Source of the DNA: Bombella favorum
GTDB lineage: Bacteria > Pseudomonadota > Alphaproteobacteria > Acetobacterales > Acetobacteraceae
DNA length: 64,000 nt
Assembly (NCBI RefSeq): GCF_014048475.1
Contig: NZ_NWUS01000002.1
Coordinates: 186,001 to 250,000 of the forward strand
Reading direction: 5' to 3'
Position numbers and translations under genes: made by a program. Within the stretch, counting starts at the first letter, position 1, and each line of letters starts with the position of its first letter. Positions 9,283-35,885 of the stretch are shown in pieces. Under the pieces are notes generated by a model that saw nothing but the letters and a program-made list of their open reading frames with translations, was not told the DNA's origin and did no database searches.

Positions 9283-9993
9283 TCACAAAGACTTTGTTCT
9301 ATCCTGCCAATACTCATGTGTATTACGGCCAAAGTCTCTGATATCAGAGACAACACCAGTCTCCTGACGAAACAAATTCACTGCTGTATTTACGTTACTC
9401 ATAATAGAATTTGTCACTTCAGCATACGGAGCATCTGACTTCTGCCCGATCTGATGCAATTCTACGACTTCTCCTGTTGGCGTTAATGGCGGAAGACCAC
9501 GTTCCATACGCTCAGCATTTGTCCAGTTACGCACCGGATCAACCTGCTGCATGTCGATATCGGGCCGCACAAGAGCTATAGCGTCACCCACCTTGGCACC
9601 CTTTAGCCCTTCTTCTGCGTAAACACTCGCTTCACCTATCCCCGAAAGAGATATGATAATGCTACCAATCATCGTCTTATCCAAGCCTAACGCCTGCACA
9701 ATAGCTCCGGCTTCCTGTGCTGTAACCTTAATCTCGTGCTTAACAGCCTCAATCTCAGCTTTAAAAGCATCTGGAATTGACTCACCGTCCAAAACACGCA
9801 AGGCTGTACCGACTACACTACCACCAAGCATCCCCCCCATGATGCCACCTTCCGGTCCTCCCACCATGGTGCCCAAAATTGCCCCTGCGGCCATACCACC
9901 ATATCGCCCCCAAGAACCATCTGAAACATGTGTCTCTTGAGTCTCTTGAGTCTCTTGAGTCTCTCGAATACTACTCTGATTATTATTCATCAT
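9283..9993 (-). CDS. Glycine-zipper protein with C-terminal HNH/Endo VII-like toxin domain
   Basis: A 236-residue protein. Residues 11-22 are an (ETQ) repeat. A glycine-rich hydrophobic segment at about 31-68 (repeated GG and GxxxG) looks like a membrane-inserting glycine zipper. Residues 156-236 resemble LHH-type HNH/Endo VII nuclease toxins: NAERMERGLPPLTPTGEVVELH, QIGQ, DAPYAEVTNS and a final EYWQDR. The LHH motif reads L179-H180-Q181, and the later family histidines before the YW segment are not evident, so catalysis may be altered or lost. The start overlaps the ATPase stop by four bases (ATGA). The SUKH gene follows, supporting a toxin-immunity pair. Nuclease activity is inference. Confidence 0.75.
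   Translation of the reverse strand: MMNNNQSSIRETQETQETQETHVSDGSWGRYGGMAAGAILGTMVGGPEGGIMGGMLGGSVVGTALRVLDGESIPDAFKAEIEAVKHEIKVTAQEAGAIVQALGLDKTMIGSIIISLSGIGEASVYAEEGLKGAKVGDAIALVRPDIDMQQVDPVRNWTNAERMERGLPPLTPTGEVVELHQIGQKSDAPYAEVTNSIMSNVNTAVNLFRQETGVVSDIRDFGRNTHEYWQDRTKSL
9933..9968. repeat. 9-bp tandem repeat in the 5' end of the toxin-like gene
   Basis: The unit TCTCTTGAG is repeated perfectly at 9933-9941, 9942-9950 and 9951-9959, with a degenerate fourth copy to 9968. On the coding strand it encodes Glu-Thr-Gln units. Because the unit is a multiple of three, copy-number change would alter protein length without shifting frame. Confidence 0.9.
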
Positions 9994-12900: not shown

Positions 12901-13268
12901 TCCTGCAACAATGCGCCATGCTGCTCCCCAATGCCGGCACCAGATGCCCCACGTACACCAATGTACAGGTTCGTTTCCTGCCCTGTAGAATAAAGATAGA
13001 AAAAAATAGAACTCTTTACGGCACCAAGTGTAGCGTAGGCTGCTGTCGCACTCTCCAACACAGCCTCCCGGTTCTCCTGCACAAGGCGAGTAACCCGGAA
13101 CAAACGTACATCACCGCCTAGAGTAAATCCTTCTTCATCTTTGAGCTGCGGACGCAGAACTGTGCAGCTGCCTAGCTGGGGCAAATAGTCCTGAGTGACA
13201 ACGGACTTTGCCAGAGACAAATTACGTTCCGCTCTTTCCCGAGCCACAGCTAGTGTCTGATCAATCAT
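9990..13268 (-). CDS. HerA/FtsK-type ATPase with large atypical N-terminal region
   Basis: A 1,092-residue protein. The C-terminal half is a HerA/DUF87-type P-loop ATPase: Walker A FVAGTTGSGKSNT near 567-579, EPAKGEY following strand two, Walker B HVTVLEEAHNLL near 795-806, and FVIVDQSP near 843-850. The N-terminal 560 residues contain a folded domain (about 20-230), a Ser/Thr/Gly-rich low-complexity linker (about 235-390) and, inside it, a hydrophobic Gly-rich segment (about 283-328) that could contact membrane. Start ATG 13268 has GCAGGAG six bases before it. HerA-type ATPases translocate DNA or proteins as hexamers (known). Its position beside a toxin-like gene suggests export or DNA handling, but the substrate is unknown. 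Confidence 0.85.
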   Translation of the reverse strand: MIDQTLAVARERAERNLSLAKSVVTQDYLPQLGSCTVLRPQLKDEEGFTLGGDVRLFRVTRLVQENREAVLESATAAYATLGAVKSSIFFYLYSTGQETNLYIGVRGASGAGIGEQHGALLQEVFRGHFPGSQLEKQDGDATKMISASLCGTMVMDSWGSVTAVTSVPGLSSEDRSMFIQGLEHFIDAAEGKRYQALILADPVSPGELSVLRSSCERLATLISPLVKTTTAYNQSESHSVAESLTKSINEGFSETVTEGENHTSNIGGSTGTTEDSRGRVVVRGLTTGLAAGLGVLADAMVPGGGLLREVVAGIGAGEIGNILGSSIAPHKTDTKSESWGESRGTNSSTSWAKTGGTSTSEGNTTTDGVNRGITHTFEQQNKSAEQFLKTIDYRLERLDEAHSYGGWNAAAYFVADTPAVSESLASTYIGLMRGVASGKDTHAITTWSGAAAELPRKWLGDFHHPRLSAQALPGMNGNVGNCLSPATIVSTREAAMMLSLPRRSASTLPVLQAEPFGRSIQHVDGTMSDQRRGRGQTALKLGCIRHLWEDMPQKIWLDREQLRTHAFVAGTTGSGKSNTLYLMLHQLLEAGIPFLVVEPAKGEYAQVFGGYEQVNCYDAGTGRANGLKLNPFRCPKELSLLEHIDRLTGIFCVCWPLYNAMPILLKEAVIVAYERAGWNVEASVYLGDGDPAYPDFVMLLAALEDVIAAAGYGERLQAEYTGALCTRVRSLTSGFSGRIFVADETGDEVLFDKAALVDLSRVGSAETRSLIMGMLVMRLVEYRQAQGEMNAPLRHVTVLEEAHNLLRAGATQGGDEQQGGVIGKSVEMITDAIAEMRTYGEGFVIVDQSPQAVHRAAIRNTGTKIALRLPDEEDRRVLGASIGLNDEQIKEMARLENGVAVVRQSGWLQAVLCHMDRFDEETLSKPMVVTGKAKLTSLEVKAFQSAAIKFLMWPWTNMASKPDITALEKQAQRWPDEAISQKLMSYIRRYEAGTFSEMPRSSEVENYLLAKLVTDIVGLRRQIALIAGRKQSEQDLDVAVGRLIQRHFRLPGTTQRQLTSFLLVDWAGVDNVDRTATCARWRGYISQDGAVA

Positions 13269-13320
13269 ATTCTGCTCCTGCAGCATTATCATTTTTCATC
13301 AAAGGCAGATTTGCGCCCGT

Positions 13321-14232
13321 TTATGGGGCAGAATGCACATACATATACGCAGCCACACCACCTACAACCAAAAGCAGCGCTACTCCCCCAACCAGCAAGA
13401 CCTTAGTCAGGCCGCAGTCGTTTGGGGATACACTCGAACCACAGCCAAAAGGGCCAGTTCTTCCCTTTCCTGTCTGGGGGGATTGGGATGCCTTGACCTT
13501 CTCAGCAACAGGAAGCTGCCCTGTTTTGCGCAGCCGATCCCGAAGTTCAATCAACGCCCTGTAACGTCTCTCCGAGAAATTATCACGCGTCCATGCTGTT
13601 TGCTCATACAAATCCTTCTCGACCGGATTTTTTATCTCCGACTCTGGCAACGGATCGGCCAACATGGTCACAGCATAATCTACAAACAAATCATTAGGAC
13701 GCCGCCTTTTGCACCACGCCAATGTCGTATAGAGATCGGCGGTACTAGTCGCTGGATTATTCAAAATCAACAGCATTGCCATACGTGCGTTGCCAACAGG
13801 CTCTTGGCTACTTCCAAAGAGATTTTCAAAATCGACAGGAAGCTGGCCGCGTGTATCCTCCCCTTTAGCCGAAGAGGTCGGCGTCTTAATGAGCTGCGCA
13901 GATGAACCAGACCTCGCATTTCCTGTCACAGATGAGGCTGCGGGCGATACCTGCTTCTCCAGCTTGCCAATAGCTTGTAGAATAGCCTGACGCTTTTTCA
14001 GCAGAGTTTGTACCTCATTTCCCGGCAAAAAAGAGCCGGGAGCTACACAACCCTTCTTATAACGTTGCCACAGCGGCTCATTCAACATGTCGAGTGACAA
14101 CTTTTCAGCCGACATCTTGACTTCCCCATCTGAAGACTGGGTAAGCCACTTACGGCGAACCTCAGTATCAGGAAGCGATGTATTCTCAAAATCCTCAAAA
14201 AATTGAGACAATGATTCTGCTCTTTCACCCAT
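13321..14232 (-). CDS. C-terminally membrane-anchored protein, unknown function
   Basis: Not recognised. The roughly 303-residue product has an acidic/helical N-terminus (ESLSQFFEDFENTSLPD), a middle Ser/Thr-rich linker and a second helical region with two basic stretches (WCKRRRPNDL, ERRYRALIELRDRLRK). It ends with one transmembrane helix (LTKVLLVGGVALLLVVGGVA) and a very short tail, so most of it should face the cytoplasm. ATG 14232 follows AAGGAG by nine bases; the upstream ATG at 14259 has no ribosome site. It is 34 bases after the dynamin gene and 52 before the ATPase, and may anchor the ATPase or GTPase to the membrane. Confidence 0.8.
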   Translation of the reverse strand: MGERAESLSQFFEDFENTSLPDTEVRRKWLTQSSDGEVKMSAEKLSLDMLNEPLWQRYKKGCVAPGSFLPGNEVQTLLKKRQAILQAIGKLEKQVSPAASSVTGNARSGSSAQLIKTPTSSAKGEDTRGQLPVDFENLFGSSQEPVGNARMAMLLILNNPATSTADLYTTLAWCKRRRPNDLFVDYAVTMLADPLPESEIKNPVEKDLYEQTAWTRDNFSERRYRALIELRDRLRKTGQLPVAEKVKASQSPQTGKGRTGPFGCGSSVSPNDCGLTKVLLVGGVALLLVVGGVAAYMYVHSAP

Positions 14233-14266
14233 ATTCTTATTCTCCTTTCTCTGTAACATAATCTAA

Positions 14267-16525
14267 TCAAGATTTTTTATTGAGTATTTCGTCCAGACGA
14301 CCTCTTATTGCACGAATTTCTTCCAGATTTTTCTCTGCTTCGGCTTGTGCCCTAGCTTGTTCGGCTGCATCGCTTTCCCGCTTTTCAATATCCCGGTCCA
14401 GCTCATCCAACTTTTCTGGCAAAAGCTTGTTCACACGTTCCTTGAAGAGTTCCACGTAATCAGCACGATACGTTAGAATCTTCTCCTCTGCCCGCGATGT
14501 AGCGTCGTCAAAAGTCTCTGAAACATCGAGAGCCCGTTGGTTCCAAACTGCGTTTACGTTACCAACCTTGTAATCATAAACTTCCTTCTCTGAGCCCCAA
14601 GAGAACGGATTCCACCATCTGGATGTAGAAACCTTTCGGGCCTCCTTCACGACCTCGCTCGAATCAAGTTTCATATCCATACTAAACGTCACATTTTCCA
14701 AAGCACTCCACAATGGACGATTCATCGTGCCATCATCAAGGCCAGCAAATACGGCTTTTATCTTCTCAGCATAAAAAGATTCCAGCTCAGCCGCAATCTG
14801 TTGGTTTGAGTCCTCCATACAGCCATTGAGAAAGGCTAAATAAGTCTGAAAATAGCCTTTAAATTCTCTCATAAGAGAATTTAACTCGCTATTGACCCGA
14901 CTAACATCATCAAGCCCGGTCAGGCGCCTCCCAGCCGTATTAAGAAACATTTCACGCTCAGTCCGTTTTTCCTGAATCGCCTTCACAAAAACTTGAGGGA
15001 GCTCTTCACGCTGTTTCAGCTCATCAAGAAAAGACTGACTTTCCCATACCTTCGTAGACTCGTTCCGCAACCGCTCCACAGCGTTCCGAATCTTCTTTAT
15101 TTTTTCACCACTTTCCGAAATTAACTTTACAAACTGCTCCTCACTCCTTCCAATTTCCAACACTTCCTTTGCAACACTCGCAAGGCGATGCAGTCGGAAC
15201 GAATAATTATATTTACGAGCATATCCTTTAATAGCTGCTTCCAAAGCAGTAATACCAGACCGGCATGCAAGTTCATTATTTCGATCAATCGCTACAGAGA
15301 AAGTAGTCGGGGCCTTCTCACTCAGATCAATACCCGGCCAATTACTCTCCGGATCCGGCAGGAAAGTCGTCTCCATACCAGTTAAATCGCCTTTTTCCTG
15401 ACGCGTGAAACTACTAACTGGATTGGCCTTCTTTCGTGACAACAAGGCTAAGCGGGCTGATACAGGATAAATAAAGGGACTCTCAATACCAACACCTTCC
15501 AAATAATCGCGGCACTGTCCCAATATTCTATCAATGTCCTCCCCTTTTTCTGGATCAAAAGCGTCTGCTTTATTCAGAACGAAAAGGAACCGGTCTCGTG
15601 CCTGTGGATCGTCCTTTATGACCCTTCCAATCTCCTCCAATAATCTCCTATCATCATTAATACCCATCTGTTCAGAATTAAGAACATATAGAATAAGAGG
15701 TTTCTTTTTATTATCTTTTATCTTTGCCATGGTAATAACACCATGACTCTCATCACGGCTGTTATTAGGACCAGGTGTGTCCGTAAGAACAACATTAAGG
15801 TTCTTCTCATCCATCACGAAAGGAAGAGGCCCCTCCAACGAAATCGTATCTACCTGCTGATGACGATTCCACTTTCCCATCGTCTCAAGAGTGACATTCT
15901 CAGGACCGCCCATCTTTTTAGCATCGGAAGCACCCGGCGTGCCACGATAGGCCGTACCTGCATAAGATGCCCTCGGCACATTCTTAATTTCCGTTATGAC
16001 AGCCGTTGTCGCCTCATTGGCAGACGGCATTAACTCTTTGTGCAAAAAGGCATTAATGAGAGTCGACTTGCCAGAAGACATAGTAGCGACAACATAAATA
16101 TCAAACCTATCCCCTAGAGCTTCATCAATTTTTGCCTTTTTATCTGGATGTTCCTCCAATAACTTTTTAAAAAATAGTCTATCATATTGCTCATCAAGCC
16201 AATTCCTAAATTCCCCGAACTTCTCCTGCGGGGACGGCATGGCCTTATACTGCTTAAAAGTAATCTTAAAGCCCTGCTCATTCGCTTGGCGAACCATCTT
16301 CTCGACATCTTGTAGGTCGGACTCTGTTCCTGCGAATGTCAAATCAATGACATTCTCCCCTTGGTAGCGCTGCTTTAGCTCACCAGGCAGTTTATGGATC
16401 CACGTCTGAAGCATCTTCTGGCTCAGTACTGCTAGCTCGTTCGGCTTCTCAAGCTTTTTCCCATTTACCTCAATGGATCGATTATCTGGGCTAACTGGGT
16501 CATAAACCAAAGAAACATCAAGCAT
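14267..16525 (-). CDS. Bacterial dynamin-like GTPase
   Basis: A 752-residue protein and the first gene of the leftward operon. The GTPase domain begins near residue 140. P-loop ATMSSGKSTL is at about 147-156, a switch I Thr in EATTAV near 171-176, G3 DTPG at 249-252 and G4 NKAD at 318-321, matching the dynamin family. The C-terminal half is long helices with strong coiled-coil character (KIRNAVERLRNESTKV; DRDIEKRESDAAEQARAQ), the expected stalk. An N-terminal 140-residue extension is not recognised. Bacterial dynamins remodel or tether membranes, and some protect cells during phage attack (known). No strong ribosome site precedes the ATG. Codon use looks more AT-rich than the flagellar genes. 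Confidence 0.88.
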   Translation of the reverse strand: MLDVSLVYDPVSPDNRSIEVNGKKLEKPNELAVLSQKMLQTWIHKLPGELKQRYQGENVIDLTFAGTESDLQDVEKMVRQANEQGFKITFKQYKAMPSPQEKFGEFRNWLDEQYDRLFFKKLLEEHPDKKAKIDEALGDRFDIYVVATMSSGKSTLINAFLHKELMPSANEATTAVITEIKNVPRASYAGTAYRGTPGASDAKKMGGPENVTLETMGKWNRHQQVDTISLEGPLPFVMDEKNLNVVLTDTPGPNNSRDESHGVITMAKIKDNKKKPLILYVLNSEQMGINDDRRLLEEIGRVIKDDPQARDRFLFVLNKADAFDPEKGEDIDRILGQCRDYLEGVGIESPFIYPVSARLALLSRKKANPVSSFTRQEKGDLTGMETTFLPDPESNWPGIDLSEKAPTTFSVAIDRNNELACRSGITALEAAIKGYARKYNYSFRLHRLASVAKEVLEIGRSEEQFVKLISESGEKIKKIRNAVERLRNESTKVWESQSFLDELKQREELPQVFVKAIQEKRTEREMFLNTAGRRLTGLDDVSRVNSELNSLMREFKGYFQTYLAFLNGCMEDSNQQIAAELESFYAEKIKAVFAGLDDGTMNRPLWSALENVTFSMDMKLDSSEVVKEARKVSTSRWWNPFSWGSEKEVYDYKVGNVNAVWNQRALDVSETFDDATSRAEEKILTYRADYVELFKERVNKLLPEKLDELDRDIEKRESDAAEQARAQAEAEKNLEEIRAIRGRLDEILNKKS

Positions 16526-23350: not shown

Positions 23351-24196
23351 ATGTTATCCCTCTCCGACTTCTTCGGTTCGCCTGATCTAACAGCGCCGCA
23401 TGGCTCATTACCTGTGCTGACAGGTATGTTTGCCATCATTCTCTGCCGGGTCAGTGCCGTTGTCATGCTGGCACCGGGATTAGGAGAGAGTGGTGCCCCG
23501 GCACGGGTGCGGGCTGGCCTCTGCTTAATGATCACGCTGGCACTGTTACCCGTACTCCAAAGCCGGCTGACGGCTGTATCGGGGGAGGCATTGCGGATGC
23601 CTGCCATGGCCCTCAAACTGATTGCAGGAGAGCTGCTCTGCGGCTTCTTCCTTGGGGCTCTGGCCCGGCTACTCACCATGTCTCTCGCCATTGCAGGGCA
23701 GATCATTGCCGTTTTTACTGGCATGGCCAGTGTCATCCAGACCGATAACCAGCTTGGGGCCTCCAGCACAGCAGTTAGCCACATGACAAGTGCTCTGGTG
23801 CCCATCATTCTCTTTTCCACTGGCCTCTATGCTTTTCCGCTTCTGGCTCTTTCTGGATCTTATACACTCTTCCCAGCGGGGCATGTAACAGCCATGATCA
23901 TCGGGGATATGGCCATAGATATTACCCGGGCTATCAGCACCAGTTTTCTCATCGCCATGCAATTAGCCGCCCCCTATTTGCTACTCGGGACACTCTGGCC
24001 GGCTATGTTGGGTGTGCTGAACCGCCTCATGCCCTCCATACAGGTTTATTCTCTCGCTATTCCGGCCCAGATTCTGGGGGGAATCCTACTCATGGCCCTT
24101 CTGATCCAGATTCTGACAGGCACATGGACAGAAAAAATGCAGCTTTACCTTTCCACACTCCCCGGCCTCATGGCCCCCACCACACCCCCCGCCTAA
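23351..24196 (+). CDS. fliR: FliR flagellar export gate protein
   Basis: Export-gate membrane protein of 281 residues with about six hydrophobic helices, including RVSAVVMLAPGLGESGAPAR near the start and LGALARLLTMSLAIAGQIIA in the middle. The start codon abuts the fliQ stop with no gap, and flhB starts six bases after its stop, so the three are translationally linked. Confidence 0.95.
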   Translation: MLSLSDFFGSPDLTAPHGSLPVLTGMFAIILCRVSAVVMLAPGLGESGAPARVRAGLCLMITLALLPVLQSRLTAVSGEALRMPAMALKLIAGELLCGFFLGALARLLTMSLAIAGQIIAVFTGMASVIQTDNQLGASSTAVSHMTSALVPIILFSTGLYAFPLLALSGSYTLFPAGHVTAMIIGDMAIDITRAISTSFLIAMQLAAPYLLLGTLWPAMLGVLNRLMPSIQVYSLAIPAQILGGILLMALLIQILTGTWTEKMQLYLSTLPGLMAPTTPPA

Positions 24197-24202
24197 CCCC
24201 AC

Positions 24203-25315
24203 ATGGCAGAAGAGAATGGCAGCGGGGGCGGTGAAAAGTCACAAGCTCCAACAGAAAAACGCCTCCAAAAAGCTCGAGAAGAAGGCAATATTGCCCAATC
24301 TAAGGAGCTTCTAATCCTTGTCGCACTGGGTACCTTTCTTCTCGTCTTTGCATTGAGCATCCCCGCCTCGGCACGCCGGTTCATGCGGGAGATGAGCAGT
24401 CTTTTCCTCAATTTTGGTCGTGTTCCCAACGATCCCGCAGCCTTGTACGGTTTCACCCTCCAAGCCATCATGACAGGGCTGCATCTCATAGGCCCGCTGG
24501 TAGGGACAGGGGCCTGTGCCATATTGATGGGCGGCCTCCTTCAGACGGGGTTCCTCTTCCGCCCCGAAGCGTTAAAGCCAGATATCACCCGCCTCTCTCC
24601 CCTGAAGGGCATTAAACGAATTGTCAGCCTCAATAATCTCATTGAGCTGCTCAAAACCATCGCCAAAATCACCGTGTTTGGCCTGATCCTCTATAAAGTT
24701 GCCCTCCAGACCATCGATTTAGCACCACAAACAGAACGATGGACAACCTATCAGCTTATTGATGCCATGAAGTCCTGGTTCATTTATGCGGGCTTTATGG
24801 TTCTGGCCATACAATGCGTCATCACCGGGCTGGATGAGGTCTGGTCCCGTTATCACCGTTTCTCCAAACTGCGTATGAGCTTTCAGGACATCAAAGATGA
24901 AATGAAGCAGAGCGAAGGTGATCCGCAGGTCAAAAACCGCCTTCGACAACTCCGGCTCAGCCGTTCCCGCCGCCATATGAAGAAGGCCGTCCGAGAGGCT
25001 ACGGTTATTGTGGTCAATCCAACCCATTATGCCGTTGCTATCCGCTATGACCAGAATAGCGGTACGGCACCGCAGATCGTGGCCAAAGGAACAGATGAGC
25101 TGGCCTTCCGCATCCGCGAGGTTGCCCGGGAGGAGAAGATTCCCATCATGTCTAACCCACCTCTGGCACGCGCCCTACATGCCTTGCCGCTGGACAGTGA
25201 AATCCCTGAAGAATTCTGGAAACCAGTAGCGACCATCATTGCCTATGTCGTCAGACTCAGAACACCCGGCTCCCGTACAATGCGCTCACCAGAGGCAGAA
25301 CCACCAAAGCTTTAA
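24203..25315 (+). CDS. flhB: FlhB export switch protein
   Basis: Controls substrate switching of flagellar export. The 370-residue product starts with a soluble EKSQAPTEKRLQKAREEGNI segment, then four membrane helices, then the cytoplasmic domain with the autocleavage motif NPTH in VVNPTHYAVAIRYD and PLARALHALPLDSEIPEEF. The motif is intact, so self-cleavage is expected. Confidence 0.96.
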   Translation: MAEENGSGGGEKSQAPTEKRLQKAREEGNIAQSKELLILVALGTFLLVFALSIPASARRFMREMSSLFLNFGRVPNDPAALYGFTLQAIMTGLHLIGPLVGTGACAILMGGLLQTGFLFRPEALKPDITRLSPLKGIKRIVSLNNLIELLKTIAKITVFGLILYKVALQTIDLAPQTERWTTYQLIDAMKSWFIYAGFMVLAIQCVITGLDEVWSRYHRFSKLRMSFQDIKDEMKQSEGDPQVKNRLRQLRLSRSRRHMKKAVREATVIVVNPTHYAVAIRYDQNSGTAPQIVAKGTDELAFRIREVAREEKIPIMSNPPLARALHALPLDSEIPEEFWKPVATIIAYVVRLRTPGSRTMRSPEAEPPKL

Positions 25316-25422: not shown

Positions 25423-27180
25423 ATGGCAGGTGTGTTCAATGCACTTACGACGGCTGTCAGCGGTATCAATGCCCAGTCAGACGCCTTTACCAACCTGAGT
25501 AACAATATCGCCAACAGCCAGACAGTCGGTTACAAAGCCAACACGACATCCTTTGCCGACTTCGTGGCTGGCAACATCACAGGCAATTCGGCCTCGCAGG
25601 CGGAGTCCAACACGGTTCAGGCCATTACCGTCCAGCATGTCGACAATTCTGGGACAGCCACCAGCAGCAGCAATGGTCTGGCCATGGATATTTCTGGCAG
25701 CGGCATGTTCGTTACCTCCAAACCGACAGGTGCCGGTACAGCCAATGCAGGCGCAACCAACTTCTCCGAGCAGAAATTCTACACGCGGAATGGTGATTTC
25801 CAGCAGGATAAAAAGGGCTATCTCGTCAACACATCTGGATATTATCTGGATGGCTATATGGCAGACTCAACAGGAACGCTGAGCAATATTCTCACCCCCA
25901 TTAATGTCAGCAACATCGGGTTCAAACCGACAGCCACCACAACCATGACCCTGAATGCGGCTGTCGGAAAGCTACCTGCGGACTCCACAAATTACACACC
26001 ACAGAGCTATACGACAGCCCCCACCACGACATACGACTCTAGCTCCAACCCGCATAAAATTGCCGTGCAATGGCAGGAGAGCGATACCAACCCGCTTATC
26101 TGGAATGTCTCTGCCTATGATGCTGATGGCAACGGCACTGTTGCACCGAACAGCTATCAGGTAGCTTTCGACCACTCTGGTGCTTTATCTTCCATCACCG
26201 ACCTACAAACGGGTAAGACTGTTGGGTCCTCCACCTCTGGCTCCGCTGCGGAAATCCCCATCACCGCCCATTATGCGAATAATGAAGAGCAGACCATGAC
26301 GCTCTCCCTCGGTACGATTGGCGGTACCAGCGGCACCACTATGGTAACCTCCAACAATTCTGCAGCTCCCAATCAGGCTAATCCCCTTACCCTGTCCGGT
26401 ACAAAACTGACCATGAGCCCGACCACTCTCGGAACCTCCACGGACAGTCAGCAAAGCTATATGAGTTCCCCGCTGACCATCAGCAGTAAGGACAAAAACG
26501 GAACAACCACCAACACGCCTGTTTCCGTTAAATGGACCCAGACAGCCGCCTCCCCGCCTACATGGTCCGTACAGGCTGTTAACCCCTATGACAGCTCCGC
26601 CACATCTGCGGTCCAAGCGGACAAAGTTCATTCTGTCGTCTTCAACAAGGATGGCAGCATGCAGAGCTTTGACGGCCAAGCCGTTACCAAGGGCAATCCT
26701 GTCACGGCAAATCTGACCATCAATGGCAACAATTACAGCCTGGACCTCTCTAATGCGTCCCTGACAACTGGCACATCCACAGGGGCCGATACCAGTGCCC
26801 TGACCAATGACAGCATTACCTCAGGCACCTACAAAGGCGCAGAGATTGAAAGCGATGGCTCTGTCATGGCGCAGTTTGACAACGGATACAGCCAGCTCAT
26901 TGGCAAGGTAGCCCTGACGAACTTCAACAACGTCAATGGGCTTCAGGCTGTGGATGGCCAGGCTTATCTTGCGACCGCACGGTCCGGCACACCCAAGACT
27001 GGTCTTGTTGGGGAGAACGGAACCGGGTCTCTTGCCGTTGGGTATGTAGAATCCTCTACAACGAACCTGACAGGCGATCTCTCGGCCCTTATCGTGGCGC
27101 AGGAGGCTTACAGTGCTAATACAAAGACCGTGACAACAGCGGATAATCTGCTTCAACAAACCATCGCTATGAAGCAATAA
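25423..27180 (+). CDS. flgE: FlgE flagellar hook protein
   Basis: Hook subunit, 585 residues. It has the conserved N-terminus (FNALTTAVSGINAQSDAFTN followed by LSNNIANSQTVGYKA), a Thr/Ser/Asn-rich variable middle and the C-terminal ALIVAQEAYSANTKTVTTAD helix typical of axial proteins. CAAGGAT precedes the ATG. It is longer than enteric FlgE, with the extra length in the central surface domains. A strong terminator follows. Confidence 0.94.
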   Translation: MAGVFNALTTAVSGINAQSDAFTNLSNNIANSQTVGYKANTTSFADFVAGNITGNSASQAESNTVQAITVQHVDNSGTATSSSNGLAMDISGSGMFVTSKPTGAGTANAGATNFSEQKFYTRNGDFQQDKKGYLVNTSGYYLDGYMADSTGTLSNILTPINVSNIGFKPTATTTMTLNAAVGKLPADSTNYTPQSYTTAPTTTYDSSSNPHKIAVQWQESDTNPLIWNVSAYDADGNGTVAPNSYQVAFDHSGALSSITDLQTGKTVGSSTSGSAAEIPITAHYANNEEQTMTLSLGTIGGTSGTTMVTSNNSAAPNQANPLTLSGTKLTMSPTTLGTSTDSQQSYMSSPLTISSKDKNGTTTNTPVSVKWTQTAASPPTWSVQAVNPYDSSATSAVQADKVHSVVFNKDGSMQSFDGQAVTKGNPVTANLTINGNNYSLDLSNASLTTGTSTGADTSALTNDSITSGTYKGAEIESDGSVMAQFDNGYSQLIGKVALTNFNNVNGLQAVDGQAYLATARSGTPKTGLVGENGTGSLAVGYVESSTTNLTGDLSALIVAQEAYSANTKTVTTADNLLQQTIAMKQ

Positions 27181-27285: not shown

Positions 27286-27996
27286 TCAAGCCTTGATGCG
27301 AGAGCGGCCTTTCTTCCCACGGTCATAATGACCCAGCCCGGTTCTGGAGGCCTCCAGCTTCTTCATCGTAGAATAGCTCTCACAAGCCATGGGATAGTCC
27401 GGTGATAGCCCCCAATAAACACGGTAACCATCAGGGCTCTGCCGATGCTGCCGTTCAATATGACGCTTCAGCATGCTGAAGGCCCCGCCACAATGCAGAC
27501 AGATGATCTCATCACTAAAAACGGAATCTTCCGGTGCACAATAAGGCTCGCTCCGGTCTGCAATCCACTGGCCGGGCTTTTCTTTCACTTCCGGGGACAT
27601 ACCCTGCACGAAGTGGCTACCAAGCCCGCTCATGCCATAGCTTTCCTGCTGCGGCAAGCGAGCTGGGAGCCCAGTGAACGACTGGTTGCTACCTTCCTTC
27701 TCGGAAACCAGACCAGCTTCCATCTTACGAGCAAGAGCAGCGATCTCATCGGCTGCACTGGCCATATCATGAATGATGCCAACATCTGCAAGACCAGACA
27801 GGACATTCAATACCGCACCAGCCCGTTCGGGATAATGCTGGGATAGTGCCAAAAGAGTTTCTGTCATTACACGCAGACGATCCGCCTGACCGACAATATC
27901 ACTCAATGTCTGGGATGACGAAAATTCTTGCTGGAACCGTGAGAGAAGACGCCCGATCCCTTTCTCAATGAACGTACTTGCTGATTGTAATGTCAT
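27286..27996 (-). CDS. MucR/Ros-family zinc-finger regulator with long N-terminal extension
   Basis: DNA-binding regulator of 236 residues. The C-terminal third matches MucR/Ros: VFSDEIICLHCGGAF, a zinc finger with C166, C169, H179 and H184, then GYRVYWGLSPDYPMACESYS. MucR proteins regulate flagellar, exopolysaccharide and cell-cycle genes in alphaproteobacteria (known). The first 155 residues are an extra helical region not seen in ordinary MucR of about 140 residues. It may add a signal-sensing or oligomerising role. GGAGAAGGGAG lies upstream. It may control this flagellar locus, which is inference. Confidence 0.85.
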   Translation of the reverse strand: MTLQSASTFIEKGIGRLLSRFQQEFSSSQTLSDIVGQADRLRVMTETLLALSQHYPERAGAVLNVLSGLADVGIIHDMASAADEIAALARKMEAGLVSEKEGSNQSFTGLPARLPQQESYGMSGLGSHFVQGMSPEVKEKPGQWIADRSEPYCAPEDSVFSDEIICLHCGGAFSMLKRHIERQHRQSPDGYRVYWGLSPDYPMACESYSTMKKLEASRTGLGHYDRGKKGRSRIKA

Positions 27997-28330
27997 ATCC
28001 CACTCCCTTCTCCGGCCTACGCCTTGCGCTACATTAAATGATTGTTGCGCCCTTGCCTATAAGACCTTTTTCAAGGCCATTGCTCTAATAAAAGCAAGCT
28101 GATCCCAGTTCAAACAGACAAAGCCCATCAATCTGATAAGCATGACCATACTGCAGGAAAAAGCCAAAAAAATGGCCAACATGACCATTTCTTGAAAATA
28201 GCCTTCAAAAAAATAAAGCCCACCGGAAACACTCTCGGCGGGCCTACTTCTAACATCCTAAAAAGACGGGATTGTCATAACTATCCAACAGCATAGTCGC
28301 CTGACTACCCTTATAAAGGCAAAGGCAAGG
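27997..28330. other. Gene-free region with minus-strand terminator
   Basis: About 330 bases with no gene seen. It probably contains the promoter of the MucR-like gene near its right-hand start and ends with the terminator of the leftward small genes. No repeat or RNA gene was recognised. Confidence 0.4.
28209..28243 (-). terminator. Rho-independent terminator of the leftward small genes
   Basis: Read on the minus strand, GCCCGCCG and CGGTGGGC form an 8-bp stem with one mismatch around a 10-base loop (28218-28243), followed by TTTATTTTTTT. The position fits the end of the transcript carrying the 28331-28639 gene. Confidence 0.75.
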
Positions 28331-28921: not shown

Positions 28922-29344
28922 ATGAACTGTCTCAAACGCTCGGCCATCACCATTAGTCTTCTTGCTATAACCTGTGGCATGTCTCTACCAGCCAAGGCAC
29001 ATGGCTTTTATGGTGGCAGTGAATATCTGCTCAACCCACCGCCGCCGCCGCCGCCACCCATGAGAGAGTTCACCCATCTTCCACCGCCACCACCGCCGCC
29101 GCCATCCTTCACAAATACATGGCAGCAGGACCGATACCGCCAAAATGACAAGCCAGCCCCATGGGCAGCCCCACTCTGGGGAAACTATCAGGACCCACGC
29201 TTTTCCAGTCAGAATGGCTGGGATGAACCTGCTTTCGTTCCGTGGAACACCTATATCCAGACACAAGCCCCCTATCCTGGTATGACCTACCCTCCAGCAC
29301 CACCAAGCCGGAGCTGTGTCGATCAGAACTGCACTGGCCCCTGA
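28922..29344 (+). CDS. Secreted proline-rich protein, unknown function
   Basis: A 140-residue product with a signal peptide (ITISLLAITCGMSLPAKA, cleavage near AKA-H). The mature part has two runs of eight prolines encoded mainly by CCG/CCA codons, then a Trp/Pro-rich tail ending with two cysteines (SCVDQNC). Such proteins are often low-complexity envelope or surface proteins. Function unknown. It is followed by the UDP-galactopyranose mutase gene 12 bases later. Confidence 0.65.
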   Translation: MNCLKRSAITISLLAITCGMSLPAKAHGFYGGSEYLLNPPPPPPPPMREFTHLPPPPPPPPSFTNTWQQDRYRQNDKPAPWAAPLWGNYQDPRFSSQNGWDEPAFVPWNTYIQTQAPYPGMTYPPAPPSRSCVDQNCTGP

Positions 29345-30531: not shown

Positions 30532-30903
30532 TCAGCCTTCGCTAATGGCCATTTCCAGCCCTTCTAGCACGTTACGGGCTGTATCTATCAATGGCGCAAG
30601 GCTGAGGGTGGGGTCCAGTATTGCCCTTATGCCGTACCTCTGCGCCTGATCAGCCATCCGAGCAAACAGCAGTCTATCTTCTGTCTCAACCATGCCAGCC
30701 TCCACAGCATTAGCCCGCTGGATCAGCGACCAGAGACGCTGGTTTTTGGCAAGGGCCTGATTCCGCTGGATGACATCCGTCTCATGCGCCGCACTTTCCA
30801 ATGTGGCAATCAACCGCCGGAAACATTCGGCATCCGCCTCCCTGTCCGACAGAGACGAACTAGCCGCCAAGCGGTAAGCGTTCATGGCATTATTCTGATA
30901 CAT
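30532..30903 (-). CDS. flaF: FlaF flagellar biosynthesis regulator
   Basis: Alphaproteobacterial protein of 123 residues needed for flagellin secretion or translation. It starts YQNNAMNAYRLAASSSLSDR and contains DADAECFRRLIATLE-type and LAKNQRLWSLI segments, with a helical C-terminus, as in FlaF. GAGGGGGAAAT precedes the ATG. The partner gene flbT and the flagellin genes are not in this window. It is downstream of flgD on the same strand. Confidence 0.85.
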   Translation of the reverse strand: MYQNNAMNAYRLAASSSLSDREADAECFRRLIATLESAAHETDVIQRNQALAKNQRLWSLIQRANAVEAGMVETEDRLLFARMADQAQRYGIRAILDPTLSLAPLIDTARNVLEGLEMAISEG

Positions 30904-30994
30904 ATTTCCCCCTCACAACCTCCCTATCCATCGTACAGGCAGCCATCACGCCACGACTGCCTGTTTTGAACCACCATGCCGTGTCAGATAGTTA

Positions 30995-31720
30995 TCAGCT
31001 GGTAGATTGCACGTTGGACAGCGGAATCTCCGCATCACCCATCACCACATTCATCCCGGAACTGCCCTTCTTCATGCCCGTAACCGTACCCCGAACCGTA
31101 AAGGGAACATCCGCCGTATTGCCACGGCCATCCACACTCTTCACAGCGACACTGTAAGCACCATCGCTCAGAGATGTACCGTTGTCATCCTTGCCATCCC
31201 AGTTCCAAGAGGTCTGACCGTTATTCGCCCGCACCACATCGTGATAGACCACCTGCCCAGCACTGTTCGCCACGGAGATACCAACCATCTGCCCAGCCCC
31301 AGCCTGGAAGGACAGACCCGCAGACCCAGACTGCAATGGCAATGTAGAGCCAGACACACTGACCTGACGCCCCACCAGCCCTTTATCCTGCGTTAGCTGG
31401 GCAGTTTCATTCAGAGAGATAAGCGTATTGAGGTTGCTGTTAGTCTGCACCTGCTGTTCCACACTGGAGAACTGAGCCAGCTGTGCCGCCATGTTTTCCG
31501 TATTCATCGGGCTGCTAGGGTCCTGATGCTTTAACTGGGCCGTAAGCAGAGTCAGAAAGTTGTTTTCATTCTTTGCCATGGAGGCAAAAGCACCTTCCGT
31601 ACTCCCCGCAGCTGAGCCACTTTGCCCTGCAGTGGAGAGAGAGGACGCCCCGCTACGAGCGGCACTATCCGTTGCCTGCTGCAAGGCCAGAAGATTGCTG
31701 GAAGACAGTGAATTGACCAT
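30995..31720 (-). CDS. flgD: FlgD hook cap (scaffold) protein
   Basis: Caps the growing hook, 241 residues. NNFLTLLTAQLKHQDPSSPM followed by NTENMAAQLAQFSSVEQQVQ is diagnostic, and the C-terminal half has the WNWDGKDDNGTSLSDGAYSV fold of FlgD. ATG 31720 has GGAGGGAGA upstream. The frame continues further upstream, but there it reads an arginine-rich shadow of fliK. It begins 25 bases after the fliK stop. Confidence 0.95.
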   Translation of the reverse strand: MVNSLSSSNLLALQQATDSAARSGASSLSTAGQSGSAAGSTEGAFASMAKNENNFLTLLTAQLKHQDPSSPMNTENMAAQLAQFSSVEQQVQTNSNLNTLISLNETAQLTQDKGLVGRQVSVSGSTLPLQSGSAGLSFQAGAGQMVGISVANSAGQVVYHDVVRANNGQTSWNWDGKDDNGTSLSDGAYSVAVKSVDGRGNTADVPFTVRGTVTGMKKGSSGMNVVMGDAEIPLSNVQSTS

Positions 31721-31745
31721 GAGACTCTCCCTCCGAGATCGTGTG

Positions 31746-33695
31746 TCAGACTGAAATATTGAGATGGCCCGTGCGGACGGACCGAGTTGTGGCCGGGGCG
31801 GCGACATCGTCCCCCTCTGCCCGAACAAACGGCTCCTGCTGTAACGGAGCAGAGAGATCACGCCCCTGCCGGGAACGCTGATCCTGCTGCCTGCCACTCT
31901 CCCCACCAGCAAAGAAGCCTCCCTCCTGCTGGAAGGAAGACTGACCGGTATGCTGCCCCGATGCCTGATAGCCCCCCTGCCCCTGATGCTGCGATGTGTT
32001 CCGGTCCTGCCCCCCGGCCATGTGGCCTGCATCGGCAGGAAGGACATCAATCTTCATAAGACCAGCATGCAGACCGGCTTCATCCAACTGTCTGGCCAGA
32101 ACATGATGTGTCTTCTGAAGTGCCTCGGTCGTGCCATCATCCTGCCCCTGCAGGGAAAGGGCAGACATACCCGCCGCCGAACGGTCCAGCTGAACATGAA
32201 CTGAGGTTGAATCCGCCGTCATGACCGTCATGGTCAGTGTTCCGGCCTGTCCAACTGCGGCACGCCCAGTCAGCACCCCCGCAGCGGAACTCCCCTGCAA
32301 GACAGACAGGCCCGTTTCCGTAGCTGTCTGCCGTGTCTCGGACGTTACGACACCAGCCGTCCCGCCATGTGCTTCCGACTGTATAAGGCGACCTTCAGAT
32401 GATGTCACAAGGCCAGCAAAAGATGAGAGATTACCCGGCATGTCCTGCCCGCTATCTCCAGCAGAAGCGTCCGTGTTCACAGTACCGCCATGCCCGGCCA
32501 TACCCTGCTCACTACCAGACCTTCCTTGATCCCCACTCCCTGCCAAAGAAGGCTCCGGCTCTTTGGAAGACGCCTTCACCATGAGGCTAAAAAGGCTATC
32601 TGGCTGCCCTTCCGGCCCGTTACGGGTATCATCCTGACGAGATGTGGCAGATGCACCATTCACCATAAATGCCGAAACAGGCAAAATGCCTGCCGTGCTG
32701 GGCTGAAAACTCATCGTCTGCACGGTAGGGAATGTCCGGTCCTTCATGGCCTGTGTAGCCGACATCGCTGTAGCAGGAGCCTGAGCGGCCTGTTGCGACG
32801 CCATCAGAGTCGTTTCGGTCTGCCTCTCACCGGTGGCATGACCAGATGACACATTGCCATAACCTATGGGCTGCTGCTGACTATGAGAGGAGGCCCCCTC
32901 CATTGCGCCAGCGATAAACGACGTCATTGCGGATGTTGGAGCTGTTGCAGCACTTCCCACCGTGCCCATAGACAACAAAGCTTGGGACAAATGGCTTGTA
33001 GTGGACGATGCCGACATAGCCGTGGCACTAGCGGTTGCCTGCGTCGAGTTTCCCGCTAAAGCATTCCCCGTCAGGGCCATGCCCAGACCTGCACGAGAAA
33101 ACTGATCATTATGGCTCAGGGCCTCTATCGACCCCGCATTAGAAAACGCCATCGCCATCCCCGTTCCGCCAGTCTGAGAAGACTCCAACGCACCAGACGA
33201 TGAAACCTGAACCGGCTGCGGCGATGCCATGAGAGCCGCCAGAGACAGGGCCTGCATGTTCAGAGATGCGGCGGTCGCTGCATCATGATCCTGCGGGCTG
33301 TTCTGTTCCTGCTGCTCAGCAGCATGAGGATCAGCACCCGCCTTTTCATCCTCCGTTTTTTCTTCCTCTGCCCGGCTCACTCCGACGGAGGATAAACCAG
33401 CCGCCTTATCCTGTGCTTCTACAGCAGAATGTGACGCATCATCTGGCCGCCCTGTGCTCTTTGCCGGCTCATCAGTCCCTTTTTTCTCCGGCACTGTATC
33501 CCGCCCGCTTTCAGCTGGTGAGGATATATTTGCTTCACTATGATCGGACGGGGCCTGATCCGCCAGAACGCCGGCAAAGTTCTTCCCGGATGAAGAACGC
33601 ACGCTCCCTCTACCAGCAGGCATGGTCGTTGAAGAACGGCCCGTGCTAGCGGTGGGCAAAGGGAGAGTTGAGAGTGAAGGACGGGGCATTACCAT
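31746..33695 (-). CDS. fliK: FliK-like hook-length control protein
   Basis: Measures hook length and triggers the FlhB switch. The 649-residue product is mostly low-complexity Ala/Ser/Gln/Gly-rich sequence, as expected of FliK rulers. A conserved-type C-terminal domain follows (LTMTVMTADSTSVHVQLDRS and ALQKTHHVLARQLDEAGLHA followed by GLMKIDVL), then a Gln-rich tail. Identification rests on that C-terminus and on position next to flgD. It is longer than enteric FliK (about 400 residues). Confidence 0.85.
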   Translation of the reverse strand: MVMPRPSLSTLPLPTASTGRSSTTMPAGRGSVRSSSGKNFAGVLADQAPSDHSEANISSPAESGRDTVPEKKGTDEPAKSTGRPDDASHSAVEAQDKAAGLSSVGVSRAEEEKTEDEKAGADPHAAEQQEQNSPQDHDAATAASLNMQALSLAALMASPQPVQVSSSGALESSQTGGTGMAMAFSNAGSIEALSHNDQFSRAGLGMALTGNALAGNSTQATASATAMSASSTTSHLSQALLSMGTVGSAATAPTSAMTSFIAGAMEGASSHSQQQPIGYGNVSSGHATGERQTETTLMASQQAAQAPATAMSATQAMKDRTFPTVQTMSFQPSTAGILPVSAFMVNGASATSRQDDTRNGPEGQPDSLFSLMVKASSKEPEPSLAGSGDQGRSGSEQGMAGHGGTVNTDASAGDSGQDMPGNLSSFAGLVTSSEGRLIQSEAHGGTAGVVTSETRQTATETGLSVLQGSSAAGVLTGRAAVGQAGTLTMTVMTADSTSVHVQLDRSAAGMSALSLQGQDDGTTEALQKTHHVLARQLDEAGLHAGLMKIDVLPADAGHMAGGQDRNTSQHQGQGGYQASGQHTGQSSFQQEGGFFAGGESGRQQDQRSRQGRDLSAPLQQEPFVRAEGDDVAAPATTRSVRTGHLNISV

Positions 33696-33731
33696 GGCGT
33701 TCTCACATTCATTCGGGCAGCATCATGTCTG

Positions 33732-34592
33732 TTAGGTCAGTTCACTCAACATGCTGTCGACTGCAGCAAAATCGGGCATAAATTCTTCGGGAATCTCCTT
33801 CCGGCCGATCTCGATACAAACCTGCGGAGGCTGCCCCTGAAGATACGCCACCAACACGGTGCGGATCGTCTCATAATAACGATTATCCATCTTCACGATG
33901 GCCCCCATCCGTGCGGCCAGAGGCCCCACGACACCATAAGCCAGCAGCACCCCAAGGAAGGTTCCCACAAGAGCCCCAGCGATCATTTCACCCAGAACGG
34001 CAGGCGGCTTACTGATGGCAGCCATGGTTTTCACCACCCCTAGAACCGCCGCCACAATACCCAGAGCAGGCAGCGCATCGGAAATACCGGAGAATGATTC
34101 CGCGATGTGCAAATCCTCATGCAGGTTCTTCTTCAGCTCCCGCCCCATAATCTCATCCAGCTGGTGGCTTTCATCCAAATTCATGCTGATGAGCCGCAAA
34201 TAATCGCAGATCATGTCGCGGGTTTTCTCATCCTGCTTGATCCGCGGTGAGGTCGCAAAAATGCTGCTTTCCTGCGGCTCCTCAAAGTCATTTTCCAAAG
34301 AGGCAATGCCCTTCATATTGGCTTGCCGTAGGAGGCGGTACATCAATGCCAGGAGGTCCATGTAACTCTGCTGGCTGTGGCGAGGCCCCTTCACAACCAA
34401 CATCAGATACCCGAAGACCGACTTTAATGCGGCCATGCTGTTGCTCATCACAAACACGCCCACGGCGGCCCCGAGAATGGTCAACAGCTCAAACGGCATA
34501 GATGCCAGCAAAGGGGCCAGCGCACCGCCTGAGGCCGCAAAGGAACCAAACACGCAAAGCAGTGCAAAAATCAGTCCACCGATATACAGCAT
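33732..34592 (-). CDS. motA: MotA flagellar stator protein
   Basis: Proton-channel stator subunit, 286 residues, four transmembrane helices. Contains the cytoplasmic loop and the conserved PALGIVAAVLGVVKTM and GEMIAGALVGTFLGVLLAYG helices. GAGAGAGGA lies upstream. It follows motB by 60 bases and precedes fliK by 36, all leftward. Confidence 0.95.
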   Translation of the reverse strand: MLYIGGLIFALLCVFGSFAASGGALAPLLASMPFELLTILGAAVGVFVMSNSMAALKSVFGYLMLVVKGPRHSQQSYMDLLALMYRLLRQANMKGIASLENDFEEPQESSIFATSPRIKQDEKTRDMICDYLRLISMNLDESHQLDEIMGRELKKNLHEDLHIAESFSGISDALPALGIVAAVLGVVKTMAAISKPPAVLGEMIAGALVGTFLGVLLAYGVVGPLAARMGAIVKMDNRYYETIRTVLVAYLQGQPPQVCIEIGRKEIPEEFMPDFAAVDSMLSELT

Positions 34593-34652
34593 CCTATCGT
34601 TCCTCTCTCAAAACGGCTTTGGGACCGCTTTTCTTCTTCCCATCCTGTATTG

Positions 34653-35822
34653 TCATTGTGCGCCTCCCTGTGAGGGCGCAGCTGTGTTCCCCTGAAAAGA
34701 TGCAGGCAACGCATGGAGACGATGGATAAGTAGGACAATCCGCCGGTTCTCTGGTGCTTCAGGGTGGGCAGGGTCGGCCAGACTACGATCTGCGCGCCCT
34801 TCCACGCTCCTAATCCGCCTATCCGGATATCCAGCCCGCACTAGCAATTCCCGCACACGGTCTGCTCTCATCTCCGACAACGTCCAATTGGATAGGCCAT
34901 GCGGATTGACCCTCCGCAGATGGTACGGAACGCCGTCTGTTTCCCCGACAATGGAGATATCTTCTGGCAGGCCGCCAAGCCACGCTCCGATCTGCTCCAA
35001 CAGGGCCATGCCTTCCTTGTTGGGCATGGTCTCACCATTATCGAACATCGGTTTATGGGCAGTATCCTGCACCTCGATGCGGATCTCATCACTCCCCATT
35101 CGGAAACCGAGATTATCCTTCAGGCTACTCAACCCGGCCTCATGGGCGATGCTGGCCTTCAGCCCTTCCATCGTCTGCCGAAGATGGGCATCTTCCTGCA
35201 CTGCCTGATGCAGAGCCCCCCCAGTGCCCGTAGCACCATAGCCATGCAACGCACTAGAAGACTGTACAAACGAGGTGCCAGCACTGCCATCCACCGCTTC
35301 ATTACCCTGACCAACCTGCCCGATATTCTCTGCTGCGCCGCTCTTGGGCCCACCTAACGGAATGATCTCCGGCCGGCCAACACCTACTTCATCCGGACGA
35401 TCTGCCGTACTAGAGGGCAGGATGCTGATACCGCTATTGGTCAGAATTCCTTCATCGGCTTTACCACCCCTCCGCCCCTGATCCTCTGGATGATTTTCAG
35501 AGGAATCCGGCTTCGGCGGTGGTTCATGGTCAGAATTATGGACCGTCCGCAAGGCAGAAGGCGCCGAAAGAGGGGATGTTTCTAGCAAAGCCTGATCCGA
35601 CGTTGCCTTGCCGGTTCTGTCCGCCATTGGGTTAAAGAACAAGGCAATTCCACGCTTCTGCTCATCTGTGGTGATATTCAACAGCCACATGAGCAGAAAG
35701 AACGCCATCATGGCGGTCATGAAGTCGGCATAGGCCACCTTCCAAGCACCACCGTGATGACCAGCCTCCACCACTTCTTCCCGCTTGATGATAATGGGAC
35801 GGCTATTCTTCCTGTTAGCCAT
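34653..35822 (-). CDS. motB: MotB flagellar stator protein
   Basis: Stator subunit that anchors MotA to peptidoglycan. The 389-residue product has the transmembrane helix with the proton-binding Asp (AYADFMTAMMAFFLLMWLLN), a long Pro/Gly-rich spacer and a C-terminal OmpA-like domain (NWTLSEMRADRVRELLVRAG and RSVEGRADRSL, ending with ENRRIVLLIH). ATG 35822 matches the family start; an upstream GTG at 35849 is less likely, although the AGGAGG is 14 bases away from the chosen ATG. Confidence 0.95.
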   Translation of the reverse strand: MANRKNSRPIIIKREEVVEAGHHGGAWKVAYADFMTAMMAFFLLMWLLNITTDEQKRGIALFFNPMADRTGKATSDQALLETSPLSAPSALRTVHNSDHEPPPKPDSSENHPEDQGRRGGKADEGILTNSGISILPSSTADRPDEVGVGRPEIIPLGGPKSGAAENIGQVGQGNEAVDGSAGTSFVQSSSALHGYGATGTGGALHQAVQEDAHLRQTMEGLKASIAHEAGLSSLKDNLGFRMGSDEIRIEVQDTAHKPMFDNGETMPNKEGMALLEQIGAWLGGLPEDISIVGETDGVPYHLRRVNPHGLSNWTLSEMRADRVRELLVRAGYPDRRIRSVEGRADRSLADPAHPEAPENRRIVLLIHRLHALPASFQGNTAAPSQGGAQ

Positions 35823-35885
35823 GATGACAGCACCATCCTCCTGCTTCACCCATCAGCATCAGGCAACTAACCGCCCCAGCCATCA

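Follow-up and report, generated by a model that had tools for sequence, protein, structure and literature searches.

Ordinary members of the Ros/MucR family are described as proteins of about 140 residues that carry a short N-terminal oligomerisation region (PMC13297338, PMC6250670, PMC9779718). In Ros, the zinc-finger motif C-X2-C-X3-F-X2-L-X2-H-X3-H-H is placed at residues 79-97 and is preceded by 78 residues (PMC9779718). The N-terminal region of the MucR protein of Brucella is reported to be conserved and hydrophobic (L36, L39, I40); according to the same source, this region is needed by classical MucR proteins to form decamers, and their regulatory function depends on it (PMC6250670). In Brucella melitensis, MucR is reported to repress the flagellar genes via ftcR (PMC9779718), and in Sinorhizobium, where MucR has been described as a xenogeneic silencer, MucR binding peaks have been reported at flagellar and motility loci. 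For Sinorhizobium meliloti, MucR2 and MucR3 are described as poor oligomerisers that bind DNA without bridging it, and MucR2 has about 20 additional residues at its N-terminus, a feature described there as unprecedented (PMC13297338, 2026). Among the open-access papers listed for MucR in connection with Gluconacetobacter, acetic acid bacteria, flagella, an N-terminal extension or domain architecture, none was evidently on the type of protein that is the subject of this work.

In this work we analyzed a MucR-type gene located in a stretch of 64,000 nucleotides from Bombella favorum (Acetobacteraceae), hereafter the window. Its product joins a Ros-type zinc finger to an N-terminal part of a different kind, an architecture that is real, conserved and recurrent. 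The features discussed are collected in Table 1.

Table 1. Features of the MucR-type gene and of its surroundings in the window
Feature	Position	Strand	Remarks
Two-domain MucR protein gene	27286..27996	-	236 aa, ATG start, stop codon included
C-terminal part, residues 133-236	27289..27600	-	Subfamily signature GMS...KP.QWIA, then putative Ros/MucR DNA-binding domain
Zinc-finger motif, residues 166-184	27445..27501	-	C-x2-C-x3-F-x2-L-x2-H-x4-H, full C2H2, Ros type
Variable linker, residues 98-132	27601..27705	-	Longer in the metagenome-assembled genome (L042) and in the Gluconacetobacter and Acetobacter forms
N-terminal helical domain, residues 1-97	27706..27996	-	From the isolated model, selection and the four-lineage alignment
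Purine-rich stretch resembling a ribosome-binding site, AGAAGGGAG	28003..28011	-	Before the ATG; read from the sequence
Conserved T-rich 20-nt block, GCCATTTTTTTGGCTTTTTC	28157..28176	-	Upstream of the gene; nearly identical in most of nine Bombella-group upstream regions
fliR and flhB	23351..25315	+	PF01311, PF01312
flgE-like hook gene	25423..27180	+	Convergent neighbour; 65-67% identity to L144/L145 genes annotated 'flagellar hook-basal body complex protein'
14-bp perfect inverted repeat, 10-nt loop	27205..27242		Between flgE and the mucR-type gene; found by eye; perhaps a bidirectional terminator
flaF, flgD, 649-aa ORF, motA, motB	30532..35849	-	

The protein and its two domains

The earlier note had placed a MucR-type zinc-finger domain at the C-terminus of a 236-residue protein, and this was borne out, with an open reading frame of exactly the extent given in Table 1. 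The Pfam profile PF05443 (Ros/MucR) matches with 72.3 bits, the curated cut-off being 25.4, and pairs residues 141-222 with profile positions 47-123 of 123; the homologs from Gluconacetobacter diazotrophicus, Acetobacter persici and A. pasteurianus score 73-81 bits. The sole sequence match in the PDB up to an E value of 1 is 2JSP, the zinc-finger domain of Ros, which covers residues 147-224 (E 1.4e-15). The residues of the finger (C166, C169, F173, L176, H179 and H184) are spaced as in Ros, and Q183 replaces the middle histidine of the Ros motif. The zinc ligands, two cysteines and two histidines, are invariant across all the lineages in the alignment, where L176 is replaced by isoleucine in A. 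persici; the residues that follow the finger are altered in the subfamily (YPMACESYS..KK.EA, vs YPMVAPNYA..RS.LA elsewhere). Judged by the sequence of its finger, the window protein is a member of the Ros/MucR domain family, and the conserved motif together with the family suggests that the C-terminal domain binds DNA. In the full-length model, residues 97-236 have pLDDT values below 50 and the finger is therefore not confidently modelled.

The N-terminal part had been put at roughly 155 residues and regarded as an extension. It is real and translated, but the figure, which includes all residues ahead of the finger, is an overcount, and nothing has been added to a full MucR. The first zinc cysteine is preceded by 165 residues in the window protein vs 78 in Ros, a net surplus of about 87, and the window protein is 94 residues longer than the MucR of Brucella (142 residues, a length implied by the mutant names in the source). 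In hhalign comparisons with 69 canonical MucR sequences, gathered by motif from the fetched loci, the canonical N-terminal region gave no match to the first 107 residues or to the full-length profile (probability 0.1, with a shallow query profile of Neff ~1.8), and the C-terminal domains aligned over residues 149-223 with a probability of 99.5. Descent of the N-terminal domain from the canonical N-terminal region was accordingly rejected, with the proviso that so shallow a profile leaves room for a very distant homology. Since no match to the canonical region was detected, the N-terminal part is most readily understood as an exchange of domains, with a new domain of about 95 residues and a variable linker, rather than as an addition. 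To call the protein a MucR-type regulator with an extension is thus correct for the finger but understates the change, since the N-terminal domain appears to be a different one. Given that the N-terminal oligomerisation region that was looked for is undetectable, we would not file the protein as a classical H-NS-like MucR, and an altered oligomerisation through the N-terminal domain seems plausible.

Translation of this domain was examined in nine orthologous loci (B. intestini, B. apis, B. mellum, B. pluederhausensis, B. saccharophila, Bombella sp. ESL0385, Parasaccharibacter apium, Acetobacteraceae bacterium B3987 and one metagenome-assembled genome), which share 66-99% identity in the best segment and overlap with the Bombella-genus genomes counted below, so that the two sets are not independent. 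All nine have an in-frame start codon in a similar position, an ATG in eight of them and a GTG chosen in the metagenome-assembled genome, where an alternative ATG lies a few codons upstream. The purine-rich stretch AGAAGGGAG ahead of the ATG in the window likewise supports translation of the N-terminal part. Relative to the window gene, the N-terminal domain (residues 8-97) has dN/dS values of 0.035-0.15 in six of the nine ortholog pairs; in the other three the ratio is not computable due to saturation of the synonymous sites. The C-terminal part is under tighter selection (0.014-0.09 in six of nine pairs) and the linker is looser (up to 0.52). The invariant blocks of the N-terminal domain are present in all ten aligned rows. 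The conserved frame and the purifying selection contradict the alternative named in the earlier note, namely that the extension is not translated and the protein starts downstream.

The same note had described the N-terminal part as helical, in agreement with the AlphaFold2 model obtained for residues 1-105 from ten close rows, in which four helices are predicted (2-21, 31-54, 56-71 and 78-102; pLDDT 80.4, pTM 0.71). Nineteen positions of this domain are invariant across four lineages, R16, R20, Q29, Q37, R58, D71 and E84 among them. In Pfam the sole match of the window domain is UBX, below its cut-off (E 0.0045, 17.6 bits vs 21) and matched by six of the ten rows; the best match among the other rows is BIG2_C (E 0.0034), found in one row of ten. 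Both were taken as chance. NCBIfam gave nothing relevant for the window protein and no match for the A. pasteurianus homolog, a PDB sequence-profile search with the N-terminal domain gave nothing better than E 0.11, and none of the 52 Foldseek matches of the N-terminal model reached E <= 0.001. The best VIA-align matches were a designed repeat protein for the N-terminal model (Z 7.2, 3.6 A over 94 residues) and the four-helix bundle of Zuotin, 6CGH, for the full-length model (Z 8.1, 3.6 A over 84 residues); Z values of 7.2-8.1 are within the range of unrelated helical bundles, and no fold is claimed or excluded on these grounds.

Flagellar surroundings and distribution

As had been noticed, the gene is inside a flagellar locus, between fliR, flhB and flgE on one side and flaF, flgD, motA and motB on the other. 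The connection is stronger than the earlier note could know, given that it recurs in G. diazotrophicus and on plasmids of two Acetobacter species. In each of the nine fetched Bombella-group loci, flgE, convergent, is on one side of the gene and flaF on the other. In G. diazotrophicus the gene follows flgF-flgK-flgL and precedes DUF6468-fliM-fliL (names given by eye). On both Acetobacter plasmids it stands at the edge of the annotated flagellar cluster, convergent to flgE-flhB-fliR-fliQ-fliE, and a GapR-family gene plus an MCP or protoglobin-domain gene are found between it and flgE. The GapR-family nucleoid protein gene directly adjoins the MucR homolog (L144:21055-21336 and L145:20999-21280, with 95% identity between them), and PF10073 was confirmed for the L144 protein. 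In the window, the open reading frames before fliR-flhB-flgE stand where fliE and fliQ are usually found (names given by eye). Other genes of the window were also observed: at 28922-29344 (+), a proline-rich 140-aa open reading frame, whose product begins like a signal peptide and ends in SCVD..C, is kept in place in the nine fetched Bombella-group loci, and a protein with a similar ending adjoins flgE in Aristophania. The stretch at 9990-16525 (-), next to flagellar genes, encodes a protein of 1100 aa that matches DUF87 (HerA type) and a dynamin-family GTPase of 752 aa.

The T-rich block upstream of the gene, which is most changed in the metagenome-assembled genome and overlaps terminator-like pattern matches, could act as an operator, as part of a promoter or as a terminator of transcription; it occurs only once within the window, so that no repeated operator was found there. 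The inverted repeat between flgE and the gene is absent from the terminator scan, which allowed loops of 3-8 only. A sigma-54-based flagellar hierarchy is known from Caulobacter. In the window, sigma-54 promoter patterns are not above chance (24 matches vs 18.2 expected; 9 of 100 shuffles reach 24). The sigma-54 DNA-binding domain PF04552 was not found in the genome of the window despite its large flagellar cluster; therefore the Caulobacter-type hierarchy probably does not apply as such. Just beyond the window, the same genome carries beside fliL a gene for a CtrA-like response regulator (L132:10520-11284), which could be a target or a partner of the window protein. Its receiver domain is degenerate (PF00072 below cut-off), it shares 65% identity with one in Aristophania, and it has relatives in other flagellar loci examined. 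Mutual exclusion of the two regulators was considered and discarded, since this genome has both.

Across the four lineages the C-terminal part shares the signature GMS...KP.QWIA...CLHCG..F.M.KRHIE..HRQ.P..YR.YWGL..YPMA, and in a tree with 27 other MucR rows the six subfamily zinc-finger domains form one clade with 100/100 support, the bootstrap being not fully settled. In a FlhB tree of seven rows, the three available carriers group together. The carriers do not form one clade in the FliM tree, where three changes are needed (207 of 500 shuffles are as low); hence the history of the gene is not simply that of a single flagellar lineage, and the gene may have been either lost repeatedly or moved between flagellar clusters. 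On the strength of the sequences, we propose a flagellar-cluster-linked MucR subfamily whose members, from the Bombella group, G. diazotrophicus, A. pasteurianus and A. persici, share the N-terminal domain, the GMS..KP.QWIA motif and the Ros/MucR domain, and are encoded in or beside a flagellar cluster.

A search for the extension in other MucR proteins, suggested beforehand as a check, was thus positive in G. diazotrophicus, in the two Acetobacter plasmids and in the genus Bombella, where the full two-domain protein was found in 10 of 11 genomes; all ten have the gene on the motA contig, at most 7 kb from motA. The remaining genome (G032) alone gave no MotA match, and it has no FliM match either; the co-occurrence with flagellar markers in this genus rests on this one flagellum-less genome. 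Of 397 family genomes, 12 contain the N-terminal domain at E <= 0.01: the ten of Bombella and two (G221 and G252, G. diazotrophicus PAl5) that probably count as one species. Twelve weaker matches (E 0.017-0.087) were put down to chance, among them L083, which resembles an ABC transporter ATPase. Of 299 family genomes, 229 gave a FliM match, and in the genus of G. diazotrophicus the gene is present in 2 of 14 genomes and MotA in 13 of 14, with motA in 11 of the 12 non-carriers. Most of the sampled flagellated Acetobacteraceae are without the gene, which is therefore not needed for flagella in general.

At the level of the class, the N-terminal domain matched its own genome and one other protein (E 0.0065), the latter without a MucR finger, among 385 genomes. 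The full-length profile matched 188 of 289 class genomes at E <= 1e-17, and among the class-genome matches listed none except that of the own genome starts before profile residue 89. When 72,556 plasmid records were searched with tblastn, the N-terminal domain gave two matches, A. pasteurianus pAP22518-1 and A. persici pAC1084_1; these are two of the 22 plasmid records with a FliM match, and the other 20 are without the domain. Phage records gave no match to the N-terminal domain, and viral contigs one match, to the zinc finger only. A profile search was also made in the open reading frames of flagellar stretches from nine genomes of the G. diazotrophicus genus (including G. diazotrophicus), five genomes of four other genera, the own genome, L083 and L084; of these, the window and G. 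diazotrophicus alone reached the inclusion threshold. Among further flagellar stretches, the two Acetobacter loci matched, and those of G166, an Aristophania vespae plasmid and a Komagataeibacter saccharivorans plasmid did not; the stretches are parts of clusters rather than whole genomes, and the plasmid records were covered whole by tblastn. The A. vespae plasmid (L159, NZ_CP047653.1; 53 kb, wasp gut) carries a large, near-complete-looking flagellar gene set in an order partly like that of the window, with the regulator absent, and the K. saccharivorans plasmid (L158) carries many flagellar genes.

Candidate role of the protein

We regard the window protein, with moderate confidence, as a dedicated transcription regulator of its flagellar cluster, with the helical domain in place of the H-NS-like assembly. 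The C-terminal Ros-type zinc finger would bind DNA, and the four-helix domain, joined by the variable linker, would dimerise or dock a partner or a signal and in this way tune binding at flagellar promoters. Such a protein would probably be a local, classical DNA-binding regulator rather than a genome-wide DNA-bridging silencer; as the poorly oligomerising MucR2 and MucR3 bind without bridging, a conventional DNA-binding regulator is the simplest reading, unless the new domain rebuilds large oligomers. Genome-wide silencing would then fall to the two ordinary MucR paralogs that this genome also encodes. The flagellar genes are the likely targets because the gene keeps company with them, and direct or indirect flagellar control is plausible given that MucR acts on flagella in B. 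melitensis and Sinorhizobium. Since MucR proteins mainly repress, as in B. melitensis via ftcR, the protein would more likely be a repressor than an activator. Counted against this reading are the CtrA-like protein beside fliL, which is a competing flagellar regulator, the lack of the gene in most flagellated relatives, the FliM tree that leaves the carriers ungrouped, and the lack of a repeated operator in the window.

Another explanation, which we hold to be rather unlikely, is that the protein is still an H-NS-like silencer whose new N-terminal domain is another multimerisation module; it would bridge AT-rich DNA and hold the flagellar cluster, which may have been acquired, in a silent state as long as it is not required. 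The reported requirement for N-terminal oligomerisation in classical MucR function (PMC6250670) and the xenogeneic silencing described in Sinorhizobium are in line with it, as are the plasmid location of the Acetobacter cluster with its adjoining GapR-family nucleoid protein gene, and the motility genes of G. diazotrophicus, which are called an accessory region, GI15, in the source (PMC2765452). The base composition of the window gene bears on this explanation in two ways: its GC3 (0.523) is below that of the eight flagellar-locus genes compared (0.548-0.662), but its overall GC content (0.527) is close to theirs (0.531-0.571), so that the window gives no evident sign of a recent acquisition. 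In addition, the model shows a compact bundle in which polar residues are conserved, unlike the short hydrophobic helix of MucR.

Less probable still, and in our view clearly unlikely, is an ordinary extra MucR paralog that hitchhikes with a mobile cluster and whose flagellar location is incidental. Plasmids often carry extra mucR genes (412 plasmid records match), the order of the neighbouring genes differs between G. diazotrophicus and Bombella, and most of the flagellar clusters examined are without the gene. Nevertheless, in a group of few known members the gene occupies two distinct positions, each of them within a flagellar cluster, which argues for a functional link, and the zinc-finger domains constitute a single deep clade that shares an N-terminal domain of its own. 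It is very improbable that the protein is a flagellar accessory factor for export or assembly, which would bind protein through a co-opted zinc finger and regulate no transcription; the flagellar linkage and the residues altered after the finger would fit, but the zinc ligands and the core motif are kept in all lineages and no flagellar fold stood out in the structure searches. Finally, a gene-model artefact or a downstream start, for which Met133 would be available in frame just ahead of the conserved C-terminal part, can hardly be entertained in view of the selection on the N-terminal domain, its invariant blocks and the kept start position.

A wider picture can be offered tentatively, as a possibility about which we are doubtful: a mobile flagellar cluster of acetic acid bacteria with a MucR-type controller on board, in which the H-NS-like assembly domain was swapped for a helical domain gated by a ligand or a partner. 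If true, a transferable motility module would bring its own switch, independent of the MucR silencers or the flagellar hierarchy of the host.

Comparison with known MucR proteins

In α-proteobacteria, MucR proteins are seen as organisers of DNA that resemble H-NS, and a subfamily in which the oligomerisation region is exchanged would provide a clean test of which MucR functions need the H-NS-like assembly. Such a subfamily also points to an unexplored layer of flagellar control in insect- and plant-associated acetic acid bacteria. Among the known proteins close to the window protein are WP_160255974.1, from the A. pasteurianus plasmid, and WP_157763076.1, from the A. persici plasmid, which are the same two-domain protein (45% and 44% identity, respectively) encoded beside flgE, flhB and fliR; database records name both just 'MucR family transcriptional regulator'. 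They differ from the window protein in their longer linkers, their plasmid location, and the GapR-family and MCP or protoglobin-domain genes that come before flgE. The ordinary MucR paralogs encoded alongside it in the genome (G000 C3:26750 and C1:102429) belong to the same C-terminal domain family; in contrast to the window protein, they have a canonical N-terminal region, and CLEDG instead of CLHCG at the finger.

Ros of Agrobacterium tumefaciens (2JSP) and the MucR proteins of Brucella and Sinorhizobium have the same C-terminal zinc-finger domain, with Ros-like C2H2 spacing, whereas the window protein carries a predicted, unrelated four-helix domain plus a linker instead of their short oligomerisation region. 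The plasmid-encoded MucR2 and MucR3 of S. meliloti are likewise atypical, with altered oligomerisation; as described, the canonical oligomerisation residues are for the most part retained in them, and their zinc sites are of the Cys-Asp-His type, in which the fourth ligand, a histidine, is missing (PMC13297338). The window protein, in contrast, combines a different N-terminal domain with a full C2H2 site.
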